64,000 nucleotides of DNA, from contig JAFLCB010000002.1 of assembly GCA_017302795.1 (NCBI GenBank), forward strand, positions 434,001 to 498,000. Direction: 5' to 3'. The stretch comes from Deltaproteobacteria bacterium (GTDB taxonomy: Bacteria > Bdellovibrionota > Bdellovibrionia > Bdellovibrionales > JAMPXM01). Positions 49,554 to 63,957 of the stretch are shown in pieces. The translations under genes were made by a program, and so were the position numbers. Position 1 is the first letter of the stretch, and each line of letters starts with the position of its first letter. The notes under the pieces were generated by a model. That model was not told the origin of the DNA and did not search any database. It was given only the letters and a program-made list of their open reading frames with translations.

Positions 49554-49670
49554 GCGCGACGCCCCATCTTTCGATGACACTGCATCGAACGAGGGCGAGA
49601 GCTTCGAAGGAGCGAGGCTCGCCCGAGACGCAGGCCCTTGGCGGGGCCCTCCTGTGGAGGGTCGCCAAGC

Positions 49671-49922
49671 CGTAGCGACATCGTCCGATCTTTCGATGCC
49701 ACTGCATCGAAAGCAGCGCAGGCCGGTGGCCGTAGCGACATCATCCGATCTTTCGATGCCACTGCATCGAAAGCAGCGCAGGCCGGTGGCCGTAGCGACA
49801 TCATCCGATCTTTCGATGCCACTGCATCGAAAGCAGCGCAGGCCGGTGGCCGTAGCGACATCATCCGATCTTTCGATGCCACTGCATCGAAAGCAGCGCA
49901 GGCCGGTGGCCGTAGCGACATC
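49671..49922 (+). repeat. 60-bp tandem hairpin repeat, about four units
   Basis: Four copies of a 60-base unit lie end to end, three of them identical and the first with one change (G for A near 49683). Each unit contains a perfect hairpin TTTCGATGC-CACT-GCATCGAAA. A degenerate half-copy is at 49568-49590 (TTTCGATGACACTGCATCGA). There are no variable spacers. The unit is a multiple of three and stop-free in several frames. It fills the space between topA and the next gene. Confidence 0.95.
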
Positions 49923-49971
49923 AAAAGACGCGGGTTGAAAACAGCCCGTGTTCGAGCTAGTTTCCGCCTCG

Positions 49972-54549: not shown

Positions 54550-55604
54550 TGGCAAACATGGCACAAGCTATTCGAATGGCTCTTCATTTCGGTGAGAAGA
54601 AACTTGGCGTAACTGATATTTTTGGCGAAGACGTCGGGGCACCTCTCGGCGGTGTATTCACGGCAACCCAGGGCTTAGAGACTGCTTGGAATTCGCCCCT
54701 TGATGAGCGCGGAATTATTTCCACAGCTATCGGTCTTGGTCTTGCGGGGGATCGCTGTGTCGCGGAGATTCAATTCTGCGATTACATTTTCAACACGATC
54801 GATTTACTAAAAATTGCGGGGAACACACTTTGGTGTTCAAACGGTCAGTACAATATACCGATTGTCGTGATGTCGCCAGTGGGTGCAGGTATTCGCGGAT
54901 CTATCTATCATTCTCATTCGTTTGATGCATGGGCAACGCGCCTCCCGGGTTGGAAAGTAGTAATGCCGTCGACGCCGCTTGACGCCTATGGGCTGATGAT
55001 TGCGGCGATCAAAGATCCAAACCCAGTCTTGTTCTTAAAGCCAAAATCTTTGATGCGAGTTCGGGGTGAAGAACTGATTCCAGGCGAGCCGTCAGATGAA
55101 AAGGAATTGAAGGCTATGATCGATGCGCCTATTGGTGATCGATCGAAGTGGAAGCCGCGTTGGCCGAAACTGGAAGAGTTTGAAATTCCCATCGGCAAGG
55201 GAAAGATCGTTCGTGAAGGGACTGATGTAACCATCGTTAGCTACGGTCGGACACTTCCATTGTGTGCGAAGGCTGCGGCTGACTATGCAGCTCGCGGTGT
55301 CTCGGTTGAAGTGATCGATCTTCGATCGCTTTACCCCTATGACTGGGGAATGATCCGAGACTCTGTACGAAAGACGGGCCGCGTACTATTCGTCAACGAA
55401 GATACGGAAGTAACTAATTTTGGCGAACACTTGTCTTATCGTGTGACTCAAGAGTTGTTTTACGAATTGTTGGCACGACCGCGCGTCTTGGCTGGAAAAA
55501 ATCTTCCGGGCATAGGGCTTCATCCGAATTTGGAAGAGGCTTCGGTCCCGCACCTTGAAGATATCCATCATGAAATTGAATCAATCATTTCGGAAGTACC
55601 ATAA
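54549..55604 (+). CDS. 2-oxo acid dehydrogenase E1 component, beta subunit
   Basis: A 351-residue partner of the alpha subunit, completing the thiamine-dependent decarboxylase tetramer. It shows FGEDVGAPLGGVFTATQGL, the core RCVAEIQFCDYIFNTIDLL, PVGAGIRGSIYHSHSFDAWA and the C-terminal transketolase fold VSYGRTLPLCAKAA and VIDLRSLYPYD. Start ATG overlaps the alpha stop by one base, and its stop overlaps the methyltransferase start likewise. Confidence 0.92.
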   Translation: MANMAQAIRMALHFGEKKLGVTDIFGEDVGAPLGGVFTATQGLETAWNSPLDERGIISTAIGLGLAGDRCVAEIQFCDYIFNTIDLLKIAGNTLWCSNGQYNIPIVVMSPVGAGIRGSIYHSHSFDAWATRLPGWKVVMPSTPLDAYGLMIAAIKDPNPVLFLKPKSLMRVRGEELIPGEPSDEKELKAMIDAPIGDRSKWKPRWPKLEEFEIPIGKGKIVREGTDVTIVSYGRTLPLCAKAAADYAARGVSVEVIDLRSLYPYDWGMIRDSVRKTGRVLFVNEDTEVTNFGEHLSYRVTQELFYELLARPRVLAGKNLPGIGLHPNLEEASVPHLEDIHHEIESIISEVP

Positions 55605-56419
55605 TGACTTCGAAGGCCAGCGCGTTGGAAAAGTTTGATCGCTATGAATACTACCGGCGGGCCGTGCAGTCGCCTGAAGTCGATGTTCGTTTTTTGCGCG
55701 ATACCTTTCGGGAAATCACCAGCCGCGAGCCGGTAAGTCTTCGCGAAGATTTCTGTGGCACATTTGCCATTTCTTGCGAGTGGGCGAAACTTTCTCCGAA
55801 ATTCCGGTCGTTTGGGGTCGACATCGACAACGAACCAATTCTTTACGGCCTGTCTCACAACTTGGTGAAGCTTCCGAAATCAGTTCGCGACCGTGTGAAA
55901 GTCCAGCAGGACAATGTTTTGAATCCAGGCTTACCCAAAGTCGATATTGTTTCGGCGATGAACTTCTCGCACTATGTTTTCAAAGATCGAAGCATGATGA
56001 AGTCCTACTTTCACAATGCGCACGCGACGTTGAATGTAGGCGGACTTTTTATCGTAGATTGTTTCGGCGGCCCGGCATGTCAAAAAGAAAGTCGTGAAGA
56101 GACTGATCACAAAGGTTTCACGTACATCTGGGAGCAGGTGTCTTATGATCCTTTAACGAACGAAGCATTGTTTCACATTCATTTTAAAGTGAAGGAAACC
56201 AGCGGGCGAATGCGACGCCACAACCATGCGTTTACCTATGACTGGCGAATGTGGTCGATTCCAGAGCTTCGCGAGATGATGATGGAAACCGGATTCCGCA
56301 AAACCCACGTTTACTGGGAAGGCACCACTCGCAATGGCGAGGGTGACGGCATCTTTAGTCGGGTGGAGAGCGGCGAAGAGTGCGAAGCCTGGGTCGCCTA
56401 CGTGGTTGGCGAGAAGTAA
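55604..56419 (+). CDS. Class I SAM-dependent methyltransferase
   Basis: A 271-residue methyltransferase. Motif I is seen as LREDFCGTFAISCEWAK (DFCGTF in place of E/DxGxGxG), motif II as FGVDIDNEPILYG, and the post-motif region as VDIVSAMNFSHYVFKDRS. FIVDCFGGPAC and MWSIPELREMMMETGF complete the fold. The atypical motif I resembles those of a conserved group of methyltransferases without known substrate. It is coupled to the E1 beta gene by a one-base overlap. Confidence 0.8.
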   Translation: MTSKASALEKFDRYEYYRRAVQSPEVDVRFLRDTFREITSREPVSLREDFCGTFAISCEWAKLSPKFRSFGVDIDNEPILYGLSHNLVKLPKSVRDRVKVQQDNVLNPGLPKVDIVSAMNFSHYVFKDRSMMKSYFHNAHATLNVGGLFIVDCFGGPACQKESREETDHKGFTYIWEQVSYDPLTNEALFHIHFKVKETSGRMRRHNHAFTYDWRMWSIPELREMMMETGFRKTHVYWEGTTRNGEGDGIFSRVESGEECEAWVAYVVGEK

Positions 56420-56424
56420 CCGAA

Positions 56425-56480
56425 AGGTACCGCCTACATTTTGGTAGCGCAGTTGCGCTACCAAAATGTAGGCGGTACCT
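56425..56480. repeat. Palindromic element 1
   Basis: A perfect 27-base inverted repeat (56425-56451 and 56454-56480) with a 2-base centre. The arms begin AGGTACCGCCTACATTTTGG. It lies exactly between the convergent ends of the methyltransferase gene and the small membrane protein gene. Two related elements lie at 62960-63002 and 63899-63957. Confidence 0.95.
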
Positions 56481-56485
56481 GCGGG

Positions 56486-56776
56486 CTATCTTGATTCTAG
56501 AATGGCAAAAAATAGGCAGAGTGCCGCGATCCTCGGCAAGTATTTTGAGACGGCTGTAAGTCTGGGTGCTTCGTTGTACTTCGGTCGTGATTTGTACCAA
56601 AGTTCTAAACCGTAAATCGCTAACAATAGCACTCCGGCAAGGGTCCATATTCGCGGAGTTTTAACCCAGCCAGGTGCCTGACTTACGTATTCGTATAGAA
56701 GGTAAGTTCCACAGTAGAGGCCAAATGTAAGCAAAAATTGAGTTCCATTCTTAAGAACGAGAGAAAATCGATTCAT
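56486..56776 (-). CDS. Small hypothetical membrane protein
   Basis: A 96-residue protein with about three hydrophobic segments (QFLLTFGLYCGTYLLYEYV, IWTLAGVLLLAIYGLELW, YLPRIAALCLFFAIL) with a basic connecting loop. No family recognised. It starts at an ATG with TTAAGC before it and lies between palindromic element 1 and the broken pyrE copy. Confidence 0.55.
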   Translation of the reverse strand: MNRFSLVLKNGTQFLLTFGLYCGTYLLYEYVSQAPGWVKTPRIWTLAGVLLLAIYGLELWYKSRPKYNEAPRLTAVSKYLPRIAALCLFFAILESR

Positions 56777-56840: not shown

Positions 56841-57240
56841 TTACTTACTTCCTGCGGCTTTTAGCTCGGCCATCGTGAAAAGTGCGTGAAGCTTGATGCC
56901 AGCGGCCGTTATTTTGTCGGACTTTCCCTCACTTCTATCGATAACACCGACGACGTCCGTGATGATTGCGCCATCAGCCCGAAGGTCGCCAGCGCTAATC
57001 ACAACCTGGCCGCCGGTGGTGATGACATCTTCAATCAGAGTAATCTTTTTGCCCTTGATATCTGGTCCCTCGGCAAACCGACAAGTCCCGTAGTCTTTGG
57101 GCTGTTTTCGAACGAATACCACTTCGTGGCCAGACTCCATGGCGATCGCCGTGGCAATGGGAATTCCGCCCATCTCAAGCGCGCCAAGAAGTTCGGTGTC
57201 TTTCGGGAGCATTGGGGCCAATAGCTTTGCGATTTCCCTA
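56841..57240 (-). pseudogene. pyrE: 5'-truncated copy of pyrE
   Basis: The last about 133 codons of orotate phosphoribosyltransferase, lacking the first 43. It includes the PRPP loop LIEDVITTGGQV. The protein is identical to the intact pyrE at 63005-63535 except Ser for Met at the second-last residue. DNA from 56886 to 57240 differs at only five, silent, positions, while the last 48 bases differ at about 13 positions, nearly all silent. Upstream of 57241 the match jumps: 57242-57353 resembles 63676-63787, so about 271 bases holding the gene start have been lost. A start at 57221 is formally open but removes conserved sequence. Confidence 0.85.
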
Positions 57241-57241
57241 A

Positions 57242-57353
57242 TCTGGCGCGGATTCTGATTTTTCAGACCGTCTTGAAGGTGCGCTTTTGAACTGGTCAGA
57301 GTCGATCGATCGAACTGACCAGACTTCAGGGGCGCCCGAGTCCTAGGCCGCGA
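57242..57353 (+). repeat. Degenerate copy of the sequence upstream of pyrE
   Basis: About 112 bases starting TCTGGCGCGGATTCTGATTT match 63676-63787, part of the gene of a small membrane protein divergent from intact pyrE, at roughly 85-90% by eye. The copy carries changes that break that reading frame. Confidence 0.85.
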
Positions 57354-57387
57354 ATCCCCACAAGGGTGGGGATGTCACCTTAATGCC

Positions 57388-58494
57388 TTAATTATTTTGA
57401 GAGAGCTTCCGGCGCGCTTTCTTTGCTGGCTCTAGAGCGTGTGGCTTCACCTGTGGTGGTTCTTGGATGGCTTCGATTTCCGCAATCAGAGGGCCTAACT
57501 CTGAGTCATAGCTTTTCCTAAATGCTAAGCTATGTTCCTCAAACTTTTTTAAATTCTGATTGCTCAGACTGACCCACTGGACGCCATTTTCAATCAAGTA
57601 AAGTTTAGAAAGTTTGGCTTGTTCAATCGAAAAGGAACGCTCGGCTTCCGCGAGTGCTGCGACCTCTTTTTCAAAGATCTCACGCAAGTCAGATGGAAGT
57701 GCATTTAAATAGGAAGAGTTCGCCAGAAGTGTTGTGAGATAAAAAAGGTGATTGGTCTCGGAAACAAACTTTATGTTTTTAATATGGCCCGGATAATCCT
57801 GGGTCAGCACATAAAGGCGATTGAGTTCCGAGTCTTCAATGTCGATTTGCCCGTTTTCATGAAGCGAAATCGAGTTGGCGCGAGTGAACGGTCCGCCGGA
57901 AATAAACTCAACGCCCAAGCTTTTATAATATTTTTGAACCGGATCTGGGCCGGAAATGATTGATTTTTTTCCCTTTAGGTCAGCGAGAGAATTCACCGCA
58001 GTGGCGCCGTACATCACTCGGAAACCGCCGCTGTAAGTAAAGCCCATGATGCGCAAAACACCGTCCGAGCCAGCCTCGACCGCGTCGATTAGCTGCTCTC
58101 CGACCGAACCATTGATAACCGCTCGAACCCGTTCATGGCTATTCAGCAGGAACGGCATATTTAGGACATCCATCTTAGTGCTGAATCTGCGCAGCTCGCC
58201 GGCATCAACCTGAGCAAGAGTTGCGGTGCCGCTAAGTACTTCATCGATCGCCGACTGATGGCGTCGGACCTTATCGTTTCCGTAGGCTACGACTTCGATC
58301 TTTATTCTTCCTTGGGAGAGGCGTTCGATATTCGAGGCAGCCTTCTGAGTCATTTCAATGACTGGCCGATTGGTCGGGTTGTGAGCGGCTACCCATCGCA
58401 TGTTGTAAGTCTTTTCGGAGCTGAGATGCAAAAACGCAAATAGCGAAAAAATCAGAACAATTGGCAAACCAATTACTAGTTTTTTATTTTTCAT
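57388..58494 (-). CDS. TRAP transporter substrate-binding protein DctP-like
   Basis: A 368-residue periplasmic binding protein of a tripartite ATP-independent transporter. An N-terminal hydrophobic segment (VIGLPIVLIFSLFAFLHL) exports or anchors it. Family features: MRWVAAHNPTNRPVIEMTQK, a cleft region DVLNMPFLLNSHERV, and FTYSGGFRVMYGATAVNSLADLKGKK near residue 152, where an Arg contacts a carboxylate ligand. The membrane subunits DctQ and DctM are not in the window, so it is an orphan here. The C-terminus has a Pro/Lys tail. Next to a barrel protein gene on the same strand. Confidence 0.85.
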   Translation of the reverse strand: MKNKKLVIGLPIVLIFSLFAFLHLSSEKTYNMRWVAAHNPTNRPVIEMTQKAASNIERLSQGRIKIEVVAYGNDKVRRHQSAIDEVLSGTATLAQVDAGELRRFSTKMDVLNMPFLLNSHERVRAVINGSVGEQLIDAVEAGSDGVLRIMGFTYSGGFRVMYGATAVNSLADLKGKKSIISGPDPVQKYYKSLGVEFISGGPFTRANSISLHENGQIDIEDSELNRLYVLTQDYPGHIKNIKFVSETNHLFYLTTLLANSSYLNALPSDLREIFEKEVAALAEAERSFSIEQAKLSKLYLIENGVQWVSLSNQNLKKFEEHSLAFRKSYDSELGPLIAEIEAIQEPPQVKPHALEPAKKARRKLSQNN

Positions 58495-58582
58495 TAATCA
58501 TCTCCCCCGAGGATTGTTTAAGAATGAACCATGTGCCTGAAAATTGCAACCTTGGCGGGACGGGGCCTCAAATCGAGACGTG

Positions 58583-59719
58583 CTAAAAGTTGAGTGACTC
58601 TCGGTAAGTAAGCCGAAAGCCCAGCAGAGCACCTTTTGTCGCTTTATTTAACGTATCGAATAGTCGACCCGGATCACCTTGATAGGTTTGATAGTAGACC
58701 GACGTTTCAATCGTCGAACTGGGTCGATAAACGAGGCGAAGGTGCGTAAAGAGATCGATCCGTTCAATCGTTCGGATAATGTTCCCCTCGAGGCTCCAGT
58801 TTTGAAGGTTATAAACGACTGGAGCTAACAATAATGTGTCCTGTCTTCCCGACGTTGTCTGAGGGTCGCGCCAGATCGTAACCTGCGGAGAAAATTTGAA
58901 ATCTGAGTTCGAAATTTCCACGGCGGCCGCGACATGTTGAGCGCCCCGCGTTGAATTGTTCGCCTCGAGTCGGTAGTTTTCATACTTCGCCATTGCGCCG
59001 ACATCCGTCGAACCCTGGTCTCTTAAATTTGTGCGATTGCGTCCCACCAGATGCAGTTCCAATTTGTCCTGCACATATCGTATGGCAAGTCCGTTCTGCT
59101 TTTCGTCGATGCGATCGACATTAGATGCGCCGTTCGGGATTGTTCCGTCGATGGTTGGAAACTTGGTTGGCGCAGATTGCAATATTCGAACATATTCGAT
59201 GTTGAATTGTCCAAGCTTGAGCGTGGCTTGAACAGCATCTGGGTGGGCGAGTTGATCTGGGAAGGGGTCAACGAAAATTCGGTTGTATCGCCTTCCGGAA
59301 AAGTAATCTAACGAAGGGTTCGTGCGCGATGGGCTCCAGCGAATGGCTTGGCGACCGACCCGGATGTTAAAGTCGGAAGAATTCCAACTGATCCAAGCCT
59401 CATTCGCGTCGGACTCCTCCGAGGGGGTTCTAGATCCACTGAAATCTAAGTCTGAGAATAGATCGAGGCGGCTTTGAAGCGTGTTTTCAGCTATTGGAAA
59501 ATCCAACTCAAGAAGACCTTTAAGCAGAGCTCTGTTAGTCAGAGTCTGATTTTCGACATGGTCCAAAACTGGGCGGAGTCGCTGAATTGTATCGAGACGA
59601 GGTTCAAGCGTGAGAGTTGTCTTCGCGTAGGTCAACGAAGGGCTGAGAAGATCAAATATTGAGCAGCAGAAAAGAAACTTAAAAAATAGTTCGTGGCAAA
59701 GCTTCAGTGACATTATCAT
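58583..59719 (-). CDS. Outer-membrane beta-barrel protein
   Basis: A 378-residue protein with signal peptide (FFKFLFCCSIFDLLSPSLTYA) and a barrel-like alternation of strands (FNIRVGRQAIRWSPSR, ATLKLGQFNIEYVRIL, KLELHLVGRNRTNL) ending RLTYRESLNF, a terminal Phe. GRQxIRW and the early aromatic strands are seen in barrel proteins of the DUF1302/alginate-export type. It lies upstream of the TRAP binding protein gene on the same strand, so the two may be co-transcribed and serve uptake of one substrate. Confidence 0.72.
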   Translation of the reverse strand: MIMSLKLCHELFFKFLFCCSIFDLLSPSLTYAKTTLTLEPRLDTIQRLRPVLDHVENQTLTNRALLKGLLELDFPIAENTLQSRLDLFSDLDFSGSRTPSEESDANEAWISWNSSDFNIRVGRQAIRWSPSRTNPSLDYFSGRRYNRIFVDPFPDQLAHPDAVQATLKLGQFNIEYVRILQSAPTKFPTIDGTIPNGASNVDRIDEKQNGLAIRYVQDKLELHLVGRNRTNLRDQGSTDVGAMAKYENYRLEANNSTRGAQHVAAAVEISNSDFKFSPQVTIWRDPQTTSGRQDTLLLAPVVYNLQNWSLEGNIIRTIERIDLFTHLRLVYRPSSTIETSVYYQTYQGDPGRLFDTLNKATKGALLGFRLTYRESLNF

Positions 59720-59817
59720 TCTAAGAGGAAGGGGTAGGATCAGGAGTCTTTCGTGTCAAGAGCCGTGCCTGTTGTCGCGAAAAGGGACGAATGGCTAAAT
59801 TGCTTGAGGGAGATAGA

Positions 59818-61275
59818 ATGGCGACGCTGTTGAAAAAGTTTGGCTGGAAAAGCTTCTTTAGTTGTCTCGTGTTAGGCGCAGTAGGCGCAACCTGTTTGGC
59901 GTCGCAAGCGGCAGTGAAGAGCGGTGTGTGCGATGGTTGCAATGTGATATTTATCGGGCTCGATGCTTTGCAAGCGAAGCGTTTGGGCGTGCGAGGCTAC
60001 AGGTCTGAGACCGCAGATGGTCGCGTTAGCATAACCCCAAATCTCGATCGGTTTGCAAAGCGATCCGTTGATTTTTCTCAGGCAATATCGCCCGCCTCTT
60101 GGACGGTGCCGACATATTTGTCCGTTTTCAGTTCCACTTTTCCGTCACAGCACGGACTTACCAATCGATTCAAAACATTTTCGAAAGAGAAGAAAGAGTT
60201 AAATAATTTCACCAATCGGACACCTGAAATATTGGTGGCGGCCCAGATCTACAAAGCGTTGGGTTATCGAACCGCCGGATTTACGGGAGATGCTGGGGTA
60301 AGCGCCGTTTTGGGATATGGTAAGGGATTTGATGAGTATTTTGACAAAGAAAGGTTCGGCGGGCTGGCGACGAGCATTTCTGAATACAAAAAATGGAATT
60401 TGAATTCGCCGGCTGAAAAATTCTTTCTTTTTCTGCATGGCTACGACTCGCACTCGCAATTTCAAAGCCAAGGGCCGGGGCTTTTCCCATTGAACAATTT
60501 AGATAAAGAGTACCGAGAAAAGCTCTCAAGCAAAGCTCAGGAAGAGTTGCGGGAGAGGGCGCTTAAGGGAGAGGCCATTCGTCCTTCTGATACCGATGTT
60601 GTTGCTTGGAATCGTTGGTATGACAATCGGGTTGCTCAGGCGGATCGCGAGTTCGGTAAATTGATTGAGGATCTTGAGGGGCGCGGACTATTGAAGAACT
60701 CTGTAGTGGTCGTTTTCGCGGATCACGGAACCGAGTTTTTTGAGCACGATGGCATCGATCACGGTCACACTTTGTATGATGAATTGGTTCATGTTCCGTT
60801 GTTGATTTTTTCTCCCCAGTTGAAAGCGGGGAGAGTTGTTAAAGAACAAGTCTCGACAATTGATATTCTGCCAACAGTGCTCGACATAACGGGTGCTCAT
60901 CCGCCAAAAGAGCTTTCGAATTTGCTTTCTTCGCAGATGAAGGGGCGAAGTTTGGCGTCGGCTGTGCGCGGGAAGTCAATTGAGAGTAAAACTGTCTACA
61001 TGGAAACAGATTTGAGAAATTTTGTTCATCTTCGGGGCATTCGTTCAGCAAGCGGCTGGAAGTACACAATGAATCTCAACTCTGGCACTGAAGAGCTCTA
61101 TAATCTCAATCAAGATCCAAAGGAACGTACGAATTTATCCAAAGATAACAAGGCAAAGTTCCAGTTAGGTTTACTGCGTGGCGAGCTTTTGAAACACATA
61201 AAGGAAAATTTGGGCGGCACTATCGCACCAATGTCTGACGCGTGTCTTCCGGTTTACCAGGGGCAGTGTGAATGA
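59818..61275 (+). CDS. Sulfatase-fold protein with Thr at the nucleophile position (copy 1)
   Basis: A 485-residue exported protein of the alkaline phosphatase/sulfatase superfamily. Start ATG 59818 follows GAGGGA by six bases; an ATG at 59791 is possible. A signal peptide is followed by SGVCDGCNVIFIGLDAL, giving a CxGC pair before the first metal Asp. Where sulfatases have C/S-x-P-S-R, aligned on FPSQHG, this has T-V-P-T-Y, so the formylglycine residue is absent. The metal site FADHGTEFFEHDGIDHGHTLYDE is intact. A Thr nucleophile is known in lipid-linked phosphotransferases of the fold. Function unknown. Overlaps the next gene by 4 bases. Confidence 0.78.
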   Translation: MATLLKKFGWKSFFSCLVLGAVGATCLASQAAVKSGVCDGCNVIFIGLDALQAKRLGVRGYRSETADGRVSITPNLDRFAKRSVDFSQAISPASWTVPTYLSVFSSTFPSQHGLTNRFKTFSKEKKELNNFTNRTPEILVAAQIYKALGYRTAGFTGDAGVSAVLGYGKGFDEYFDKERFGGLATSISEYKKWNLNSPAEKFFLFLHGYDSHSQFQSQGPGLFPLNNLDKEYREKLSSKAQEELRERALKGEAIRPSDTDVVAWNRWYDNRVAQADREFGKLIEDLEGRGLLKNSVVVVFADHGTEFFEHDGIDHGHTLYDELVHVPLLIFSPQLKAGRVVKEQVSTIDILPTVLDITGAHPPKELSNLLSSQMKGRSLASAVRGKSIESKTVYMETDLRNFVHLRGIRSASGWKYTMNLNSGTEELYNLNQDPKERTNLSKDNKAKFQLGLLRGELLKHIKENLGGTIAPMSDACLPVYQGQCE

Positions 61276-62948
61276 TTATTTTGAAAATCCGTCTAACCTT
61301 TTTAGTTTTGGCTCTATGTTTGTTGGCGACTGTTTCTTGTGTGCAGACTCAACGACCGAGTTCTCTAACTCGGCCCCTGAAAAGCGAAAACTATTGTGTT
61401 GGTTGCAATGTAATTTTGGTGAGCGCTGATAGTGTTCGTGCAGATCGCTTGTCGATCTATGGATATCCGCGTCCCACGACGCCTGCGATCACCGAATTTT
61501 CTAAACAGTCGGTCGCATTTAAGAATTTTTTCGTTGCGGGAACTTTAACGCCTACATCAGAGGCTTCAGTTCACACCGGTCGATATCCGGTATCGAACGG
61601 GATGGTTGGCTTCCAATCTAAAATCTCGACTGACTCATTGACTCTCGCGGAAGTGTTCAAAAAAAACGGTTACAGCACATCGGCCTTTTCAAGTTCGCCC
61701 GAGTTTTTTTCTCGTCCCAATATGCGAGAGACCTTCAGCCGGGGTTACGATAAATACGCTATGCAGTGGCGCCTCACAAAAAAATCTAGAAATCTGCGGC
61801 TCAATGAGTTTGCAGAATGGGCCGCGAAGCAAAAGAAAGCTGAAAAGCCTTTCTTTAGTTGGATTGCGCTAGGCACTGCTCACTGGCCAATCGGAACTCA
61901 TGCCCCAAGGAAATTCAACGATCCAAATTACAGCGGGATCTTTAAGAATATTGATCGAATTGAAAGCTCGGCTCTGCAACACGCTGTGTTTCAGTTGATA
62001 TATGATGGGTTTCTTTACAACCGGCAAGGTCGTGATGTTTTTATCGGAAGATTCGATGGAACAGCAGGTGACTCCGAGCAAAACGTGATTGAGAAACAGT
62101 CGGTTTGGCCATTTGATATTCCCTCGAAAGTCAAACGAGTAAAACTGAATCCAGCGGACATCCGCCATATTTCTGATCTTTACGATAATAGCATTTTCGC
62201 GATGGATCAGGAGTTTTCAACGCTGCTGAAGATCGTGCGTGAATTGGATCTCGAAAAAAACACCGTCATTATTTTCCAGTCTGAGCATGGCGAGGAGATG
62301 TTAGAGCAGGGCGAATATGCACACGATAATCTGTGGGACACGACGATTCATGCCCCATTGATCATTCATAGTCCCACCTTTAGTAAGCACGCAGGGACCT
62401 GGGTGGAGGGGCTCGCCTCTGGCGTCGATCTCGCCCCTACGATATACAGGCATTTGGGATTTAATCTTGGAAACGAGATTCGTTTTGATGGCGTTGAGCT
62501 TCTGGAAAAAGGGAGTCACGGCAAATTCAAAAGTGAACGAACAGAGGTGTTTCTTACACAAGTACCAATATGGGAAACGTTATGGTCCATTCGCGGCGAT
62601 GAATGGTTGCTGGACGGCCTGCGAAAAGCGAATGCTTCAATGAATTTTCGCAATTACGGTGTTCGCACTGCAACTCATAAGTTGATTCATCGAAAGACGA
62701 GATTCATAAAAGCTATTCATTCAATGAGGAACTATTTTACGGGCGAAAATCAAATAGAGGATGAGTACGAGTTTTTTGATCTTCGCAAAGATCCCGAAGA
62801 AAAATTCAATCTTATGCGCGCGCCGCTTTCGGCTGAGAATAAGGTCGAGCTTGAAGCTCTAAAGACAAAGCTGAAAGAGTTTGATGAACGCATGCTCCGC
62901 CTGTCTCGCCTGAAGGATGGAACTAAGGATTTTCAGGAGTATTTCTAG
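61272..62948 (+). CDS. Sulfatase-fold lipoprotein with Thr at the nucleophile position (copy 2)
   Basis: A 558-residue paralogue of the preceding protein. Signal segment FLVLALCLLATVSC gives a probable lipidated Cys at about residue 23. YCVGCNVILVSADSVRADRLSIYGY again has the CxGC pair before the metal Asp. Counting back from HTGRYP, the nucleophile position is Thr in LTPTSEAS, not Cys or Ser. The second metal site reads FQSEHGEEMLEQGEYAHDNLWD, with Glu for the usual Asp. It has a large insert around 225-285. ATGA overlap with copy 1 indicates coupled translation. Confidence 0.78.
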   Translation: MIILKIRLTFLVLALCLLATVSCVQTQRPSSLTRPLKSENYCVGCNVILVSADSVRADRLSIYGYPRPTTPAITEFSKQSVAFKNFFVAGTLTPTSEASVHTGRYPVSNGMVGFQSKISTDSLTLAEVFKKNGYSTSAFSSSPEFFSRPNMRETFSRGYDKYAMQWRLTKKSRNLRLNEFAEWAAKQKKAEKPFFSWIALGTAHWPIGTHAPRKFNDPNYSGIFKNIDRIESSALQHAVFQLIYDGFLYNRQGRDVFIGRFDGTAGDSEQNVIEKQSVWPFDIPSKVKRVKLNPADIRHISDLYDNSIFAMDQEFSTLLKIVRELDLEKNTVIIFQSEHGEEMLEQGEYAHDNLWDTTIHAPLIIHSPTFSKHAGTWVEGLASGVDLAPTIYRHLGFNLGNEIRFDGVELLEKGSHGKFKSERTEVFLTQVPIWETLWSIRGDEWLLDGLRKANASMNFRNYGVRTATHKLIHRKTRFIKAIHSMRNYFTGENQIEDEYEFFDLRKDPEEKFNLMRAPLSAENKVELEALKTKLKEFDERMLRLSRLKDGTKDFQEYF

Positions 62949-62959
62949 GTCGGGCGCTG

Positions 62960-63002
62960 AGGCGCCGCCTAAGAAATGCGACGCATTTCTTAGGCGGTAC
63001 CT
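62960..63002. repeat. Palindromic element 2
   Basis: Inverted repeat of 21-base arms (62960-62980 and 62982-63002) with two changes between the arms. The right arm ends TTAGGCGGTACCT, the same end as elements 1 and 3. It lies between the convergent sulfatase-fold gene (stop 62948) and pyrE (stop 63005). Confidence 0.92.
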
Positions 63003-63004
63003 AT

Positions 63005-63535
63005 CTATTTCATACCGGCGGCCTTCAGCTCTGCCATAGTAAACAGAGCGTGAAGCTTGATGCCAGCGGCCGTTATTTTGTCGGACTTTCCCTCACTTCT
63101 ATCGATAACACCGACGACGTCCGTGATGATTGCGCCATCAGCCCGAAGGTCGCCAGCGCTAATCACAACCTGGCCGCCGGTGGTGATGACATCTTCAATC
63201 AGAGTAATCTTTTTGCCCTTGATATCTGGTCCCTCGGCAAACCGACAAGTCCCGTAGTCTTTGGGCTGTTTTCGAACAAATACCACTTCGTGGCCCGATT
63301 CCATGGCGATCGCCGTGGCAATGGGAATTCCACCCATCTCAAGCGCGCCAAGAAGTTCGGTGTCTTTCGGGAGCATCGGGGCCAATAGCTTTGCGATTTC
63401 CCTAAGAACCGTGGGACGGCTTTCGAATTGGTACTTGTCGAAGTACTCGTTCGAGGTTTGACCGCTGCGAAGTTTAAACGTTCCGGTGCGGTGCGAAAGT
63501 TTAAAGACAGTTTTTGCGAGTTCATGTTTTGTCAT
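63005..63535 (-). CDS. pyrE: Orotate phosphoribosyltransferase
   Basis: A 176-residue pyrimidine biosynthesis enzyme joining orotate and PRPP to make OMP. MTKHELAKTVFKLSHRTGTFKLRSG starts the usual N-terminal hood, LLGALEMGGIPIATAIAM follows, and the PRPP loop is ITLIEDVITTGGQVV. ATG 63535 follows GGGAG with spacing six; a longer frame to 63718 is not supported. Shorter than the E. coli enzyme but usual for this branch. A truncated copy stands at 56841-57240, on the far side of four accessory genes. Confidence 0.95.
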   Translation of the reverse strand: MTKHELAKTVFKLSHRTGTFKLRSGQTSNEYFDKYQFESRPTVLREIAKLLAPMLPKDTELLGALEMGGIPIATAIAMESGHEVVFVRKQPKDYGTCRFAEGPDIKGKKITLIEDVITTGGQVVISAGDLRADGAIITDVVGVIDRSEGKSDKITAAGIKLHALFTMAELKAAGMK

Positions 63536-63633
63536 TACCGGCTCCCTTTTGACCCTAAGTAGGTGGCACACACGATGCTTACTACTTGGTTCATCTGTGA
63601 GGGGCAACAGAAGCGAAGGGAAGCAGGGGCGAA

Positions 63634-63894
63634 ATGGGGCCGAAATCGCAGCAAGAAAATGATCTTCGGGGGCCTTCTGGCGCGGATTCTGATTTTTCAG
63701 ACCCTCTTGAAGGTGCACTTTTGAACTCGTCAGAGTCGATCGATCGATCTAGCCAGACGGCAGGGTCGCCCGAATCCTGGGCTGCGAAGCCGATCGCGCA
63801 AAAAGACAGATTAGATTTCGATGCGTTGAGAATTTTTGTCGTCCTTGCGTTGCTGACAGCGGCAATGGCGGTGGTGATGAAGTTCCTTTTTTAG
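63634..63894 (+). CDS. Small tail-anchored membrane protein
   Basis: An 86-residue protein with a polar, Ser/Asp-rich N-terminus and one C-terminal hydrophobic segment (LRIFVVLALLTAAMAVVMKF) near residues 65-84. It diverges from pyrE with a 98-base gap. A degraded copy of its middle part is found at 57242-57353. No function recognised. No strong ribosome site, so the start is uncertain. Confidence 0.5.
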   Translation: MGPKSQQENDLRGPSGADSDFSDPLEGALLNSSESIDRSSQTAGSPESWAAKPIAQKDRLDFDALRIFVVLALLTAAMAVVMKFLF

Positions 63895-63898
63895 TGGC

Positions 63899-63957
63899 AA
63901 AGGTGCCTCCAGCATTTTTGATACGCGCCGCGTTTCAAAAATGTAGGAGGTACCTTT
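63899..63957. repeat. Palindromic element 3
   Basis: Inverted repeat of 29-base arms (63899-63927 and 63929-63957) with four mismatches. The right arm ends ATGTAGGAGGTACCTTTT, close to the ends of elements 1 and 2. It begins five bases after the small membrane protein gene. Confidence 0.92.

Follow-up and report, generated by a model that had tools for sequence, protein, structure and literature searches.

The intact pyrE gene of the window (the whole stretch of 64,000 nucleotides that was analysed) is a mosaic: it shares a nearly identical body with a truncated second copy, has a 3' end as unlike that of the other copy as the ends of separate species are to one another, and is separated from it by a four-gene islet. 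Part of the region upstream of pyrE is duplicated as well, both flanks of the locus are native, and neither the islet nor a second pyrE occurs in the four congeners compared. We hypothesize that the islet and a pyrE tail entered together, probably by homologous recombination inside pyrE at one end and an illegitimate join at the other, with the partial duplication left behind. The mechanism is an ordinary one, and the locus clearly exemplifies a kind of event already known, of which it is an unusually clear fossil. It would be a well-preserved trace of DNA uptake by imprecise recombination, in which stages that seldom survive can still be read: the gene end that was exchanged, the older end that it displaced and the duplicated stub of the upstream gene. 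It would also mean that a Bdellovibrio-group genome can acquire cargo with no dedicated element to carry it, and with no more than the end of a single essential gene affected.

The two pyrE copies and their 3' ends

The intact gene (63005-63535, minus strand) encodes an orotate phosphoribosyltransferase of 176 aa scoring over the TIGR00336 cut-off. The truncated copy (56841-57240, minus strand) has lost its start and covers codons 45-177; alignment, codon comparison and pattern search give it a 3' end of the genus type. The initial annotation had placed the two copies at these positions around four genes, and the coordinates and structure are as it described. The copies align without gaps over 400 bp (56841-57240 against 63005-63404), and the duplication is the sole dispersed direct repeat of at least 60 bp in the window. 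Across codons 45-162 we counted the five differences claimed previously (codons 53, 68, 79, 80 and 86), all five of them silent, whereas codons 163-177, up to and including the stop, carry 13 nucleotide differences and a single amino-acid change (Met/Ser at 175), again in agreement with the heavy substitution first described. Within codons 163-174, 9 of 12 codons differ silently, on a par with the level between species, against 5 of 118 in the body (Fisher p = 1.5e-11), and a change point before codon 163 has a log-likelihood ratio of 17.0, which none of 20,000 permutations equalled. Divergence along the gene is thus uneven by both tests, and the sharp change point upholds the earlier proposal that the ends were joined by recombination within pyrE.

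The body is itself heterogeneous, with no differing codon among the 76 of codons 87-162 and five among the 42 of codons 45-86 (Fisher p = 0.005); together with the upstream fragment described below (12 differences in 116 bp), the duplicated region therefore shows several levels of divergence. Purifying selection on the truncated copy was rejected as the sole cause of the near identity, since it leaves unexplained the abrupt change at the 3' end and the 0/76 in codons 87-162. An exact run of 230 bp common to both copies exceeds usual k-mers, and an assembly artefact, with this repeat linking reads that belong to two different strains or species, has to be weighed. We regard it as very unlikely, because the locus is embedded in a contig of 546 kb, in an assembly of 39 contigs that is 98.6% complete, and because a misjoin would not produce the deletion and the fragment beside the truncated copy, the latter with substitutions of its own.

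That deletion removes 271 bp equivalent to 63405-63675: the first 44 codons of pyrE, the intergenic region and the beginning of an 86-aa divergent gene (63634-63894, plus strand), the native upstream neighbour of pyrE. A small divergent gene also lies upstream of pyrE in G001, G002, G004 and G012, in each case a weak syntenic relative of poorly conserved sequence. Beyond the deletion follow 116 bp (57242-57357, plus strand) from the 5' part of the 86-aa gene, 89% identical to 63676-63791; of the 12 differences, eight change a residue and one of these eight introduces an in-frame stop. The fragment has no start codon and is therefore probably drifting. Since the truncated copy runs across the deletion into sequence of the divergent upstream gene, it is the native pyrE region in duplicated, broken form, and the initial annotation was right that it includes part of the upstream locus. 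Intact pyrE and the 86-aa gene both remain, the deletion being confined to the extra copy. Similarity to the 86-aa gene stops at about 57357, inside a hairpin beyond the first islet gene.

Comparison with the congeners (G001-G004) bears on which of the two 3' ends is the old one, a point on which the initial annotation took no side. Of the codons in 163-174 that can be compared with the four congeners (43 in all), 20 show a silent difference in the broken copy and 32 in the intact gene; comparisons among the congeners themselves give 27 of 61. A 27-nt pattern from the broken end, with at most three mismatches, is found in G001, G003, G004 and G005, so that three of the four congeners lie within 3/27 mismatches of it. 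The first 30 nt of the intact end, likewise with at most three mismatches, matched none of the 140 other genomes of the order (141 searched, its own copy being the sole match). Over equal 27-nt stretches the intact end is 5-8 mismatches from every congener and the broken end 2-6. Because the counts and patterns of the broken copy are like those of the genus and the intact end is without a match, the broken copy probably keeps the old pyrE end, and codons 163-177 of the intact gene (63005-63049, minus strand), as delimited by the breakpoint, are probably a foreign replacement. No donor turned up, and both the foreign origin proposed for this end and the direction of transfer that we infer rest on about 12 codons.

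The opposite assignment would make the intact 3' end native and the truncated copy the newcomer, part of a foreign piece (a 96-aa ORF and a pyrE end) that would have joined an already existing islet at its methyltransferase side. The intact end does have two or three silent states in common with G002, the congener with the highest pyrE protein identity, and the ORF in question (56486-56776, minus strand; from the ORF list, probably a membrane protein), which lies between the broken pyrE and the methyltransferase gene, has no significant relative in 19 other genomes. We nevertheless consider this assignment unlikely: it is the broken end that matches three of the four congeners and the intact end none, the methyltransferase gene adjoining the broken copy is native and not mosaic, and the 86-aa gene fragment is just 10% different, and for that reason came from the lineage of the window or one very near to it.

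Islet genes and the methyltransferase/pyrE gap

The islet consists of genes for a DctP-type binding protein, a barrel protein and two sulfatase-fold proteins. At its left end, a TRAP-type (DctP) substrate-binding protein (57388-58494, minus strand; PF03480, E 3e-28; NF037995 over cut-off) has its closest congener relatives at about 27% identity; no TRAP permease gene lies inside the islet, and the protein is possibly an orphan. It is followed by a probable outer-membrane barrel protein (58583-59719, minus strand; PF13372, weak and below cut-off), with relatives elsewhere at 29-36%. The remaining genes encode predicted enzymes of the alkaline phosphatase superfamily, S1 (59791-61275, plus strand; PF00884, E 2e-31) and S2, of the same fold (61272-62948, plus strand; PF00884, E 1e-43), the start of S2 overlapping the stop of S1 by 4 bp. 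No close counterpart of the islet genes was found in the four congeners, and the genomes of the family and order that were searched gave distant matches at best (22-36% identity).

Relatives of S2 at E <= 1e-20 are present in 4 of 369 genomes of the phylum, that of the window included, and in all three of the others, which are distant, the direct neighbour is a relative of S1 (45-49%). The S1-S2 genes overlap or nearly do so, and S1 ends in a conserved CLPVY[KQ]GQCE tail. That the two-gene unit is rare and scattered suggests horizontal spread. No relative of S1 was found in viral contigs, and a viral origin of the islet was discarded. In alignments to solved sulfatases, the position of the nucleophile, usually cysteine or serine, is apparently occupied by threonine in both proteins (SWTVPT in S1, TLTPTSE in S2), a residue that would favour phosphate-ester or transferase chemistry over sulfate-ester cleavage.

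A perfect palindrome with 28-bp arms, of the AGGTACCGCCTA type (56425-56480; RNA fold z = -12), and a second between S2 and intact pyrE (62960-63002; palindrome search and RNA fold) are likely bidirectional terminators. Further palindromes lie at 63893-63957 and at 66685 (contig coordinates continued beyond the window), and all four share AGGTACC[G/T]CCT ends. With one mismatch allowed, AGGTACCGCCTA has four matches in the window against 0.04 expected, and within the approximately 80 kb examined such palindromes are confined to the surroundings of the pyrE/islet locus. One is present in G002 at the matching place, beside a dCTP deaminase gene. Their appearance is that of bidirectional terminators or of a small repeat family. 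Elsewhere in the window, a 60-bp tandem repeat in four copies (49669-49968) can be read as peptide repeats on both strands.

The contig to which the window belongs (C2, 545,966 bp) is one of 39 in a genome of 4.23 Mb. The closest relatives of its pyrE are from genomes of metagenomic origin that bear the labels Bdellovibrionota, Bdellovibrionales and Bdellovibrionaceae. In these relatives, the genes for pyruvate dehydrogenase E1 alpha and beta and the methyltransferase are followed by pyrE on the opposite strand, and then, further along in this order, by what we take from our own reading of the proteins to be dCTP deaminase (in many) and elongation factor G (in nearly all). The methyltransferase-fold gene (55604-56419, plus strand), convergent with pyrE, is the same conserved neighbour in the congeners and in most of the order examined. 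Along its length, silent divergence from the congeners has no breakpoint and hence gives no visible sign of mosaicism, and the idea that the left flank is mosaic too was dropped. Since the methyltransferase side and the side of the 86-aa gene are both conserved in relatives, both flanks in the window are native.

Variable content is to be expected in a gap between convergent genes. The methyltransferase/pyrE gap is an empty site of about 31 bp in G003, where pyrE lies directly against the methyltransferase gene, and measures about 76 bp in G006; elsewhere it extends to 0.7-2.6 kb and holds single or paired genes, mostly differing by species. These include a metallophosphoesterase (G001, G012), a hybrid histidine kinase accompanied by a small ORF (G008), proteins without a Pfam match (G002, G004, G007, G010, L041) and further ORFs (L043, L044, L046), with cargo common to G007 and G010 and to L043 and L044. 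The islet-free relatives that were searched have one pyrE each and no second piece of the gene; one extra match, in G002, was a 30% match to a different phosphoribosyltransferase-like frame. The duplication is therefore peculiar to the genome of the window among those searched. The suggestion in the initial annotation that pyrE is a hotspot for accessory cargo holds in so far as the content of the gap varies across the order; that pyrE itself is the target is not shown, as no other genome has a pyrE duplication. The literature, as far as our searches opened it, held nothing directly relevant on pyrE as an integration hotspot or on Bdellovibrio transformation. It is tempting, though rather doubtful, to see the gap as a docking site in the order, at which cargo would be swapped between species by homologous recombination in both conserved flanking genes, essential-gene ends travelling along, without an integrase. 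As its contents differ in most species examined, the gap is a site at which such ideas can be tested.

Possible route of capture

Our working hypothesis is that the native methyltransferase/pyrE locus took in a foreign fragment bearing the DctP, barrel, S1 and S2 genes together with the pyrE 3' end next to them. Homology is shared at one junction (the breakpoint inside pyrE at codon 163), fragments of the target, both pyrE and upstream, are duplicated on the two sides of the insert, and the insert is absent from relatives, among which an empty site is present. At one end, homologous recombination in pyrE near codon 163 would have given the working gene the last 15 codons and the terminator of the donor; at the other, an illegitimate join would have formed beside the 86-aa gene fragment. 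Ligation of the fragment into a circle followed by a single crossover is one possible route, and homology-facilitated illegitimate recombination (HFIR) between sister chromosomes another. In either case the native pyrE 3' end, with the duplicated and internally deleted pyrE/86-aa gene stretch, would have stayed on the methyltransferase side as a pseudogene.

The duplicated upstream fragment, at 10% difference, is much less diverged than the pyrE 3' ends, which are saturated, and the body differs by 0-5%. One donor at a uniform distance is therefore insufficient, and conversion or a second step is needed. The near-identical bodies may reflect later gene conversion, or the pyrE body of the donor may already have been near that of the recipient; alternatively, the donor may have been another strain of the same species, in which the islet and the foreign end were already present. 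The genome has one match to a ComEC-type protein, of uncertain completeness, which hints faintly at competence.

Some integrative elements rebuild the 3' end of their target gene, and such a site-specific element, targeting pyrE, could have re-supplied its end and later lost the integrase. As with elements of this kind that insert in coding genes, the intact gene carries a replacement end through which it is functional, and the end so displaced is found across the islet. We think this very improbable. A PF00589 search of contig C2, covering tyrosine integrases, gave no match, in accord with the initial annotation, and an island borne by such an integrase was rejected. The repeat exceeds 500 bp, is made of gene sequence and upstream DNA and has an internal deletion; it is far larger than a short att core, and no att-type direct repeat of at least 25 bp was found at the islet ends besides the duplications of pyrE and the 86-aa gene. 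No other pyrE duplication was found among the relatives searched, and S1 has no relative in viral contigs. With no PF00589 match on the contig and a repeat made of gene and upstream DNA without an att core, homologous recombination with a foreign pyrE region, which had been offered as the alternative, fits better than a site-specific element.

Comparison with known systems

Recombination with one homologous and one illegitimate end is known as HFIR from S. pneumoniae, A. baylyi and P. stutzeri (cited in PMC3240628), and the locus would resemble its products in this respect; unlike classical HFIR, which typically deletes recipient DNA, recipient DNA is here duplicated. Transformation of S. pneumoniae yields tandem duplications through the pairing of sister chromosomes (PMC3784515). 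In Vibrio cholerae, an HFIR-like route has been proposed for displaced gene ends (PMC5361080), and the orphan immunity arrays of its T6SS loci likewise combine a new module beside a conserved gene with a displaced older part kept downstream, but there is no toxin-immunity logic in the present locus, where a housekeeping gene has had its own 3' end exchanged. In E. coli, the duplication PCR product showed 56 of 60 Lac- integrants to carry a partly duplicated target locus; the 14 that were sequenced had duplications of 109-950 bp, ascribed to a linear molecule that loses part of a homologous end, recircularises and integrates by a single crossover (PMC3240628). As in those single-crossover integrants, the presumed foreign DNA at pyrE lies between partial direct duplications of the target of a few hundred bp, one of them truncated at what would be an illegitimate join; the pyrE/islet locus differs from them in having arisen in nature long ago, in its mosaic 3' end and in the deletion inside its truncated copy.
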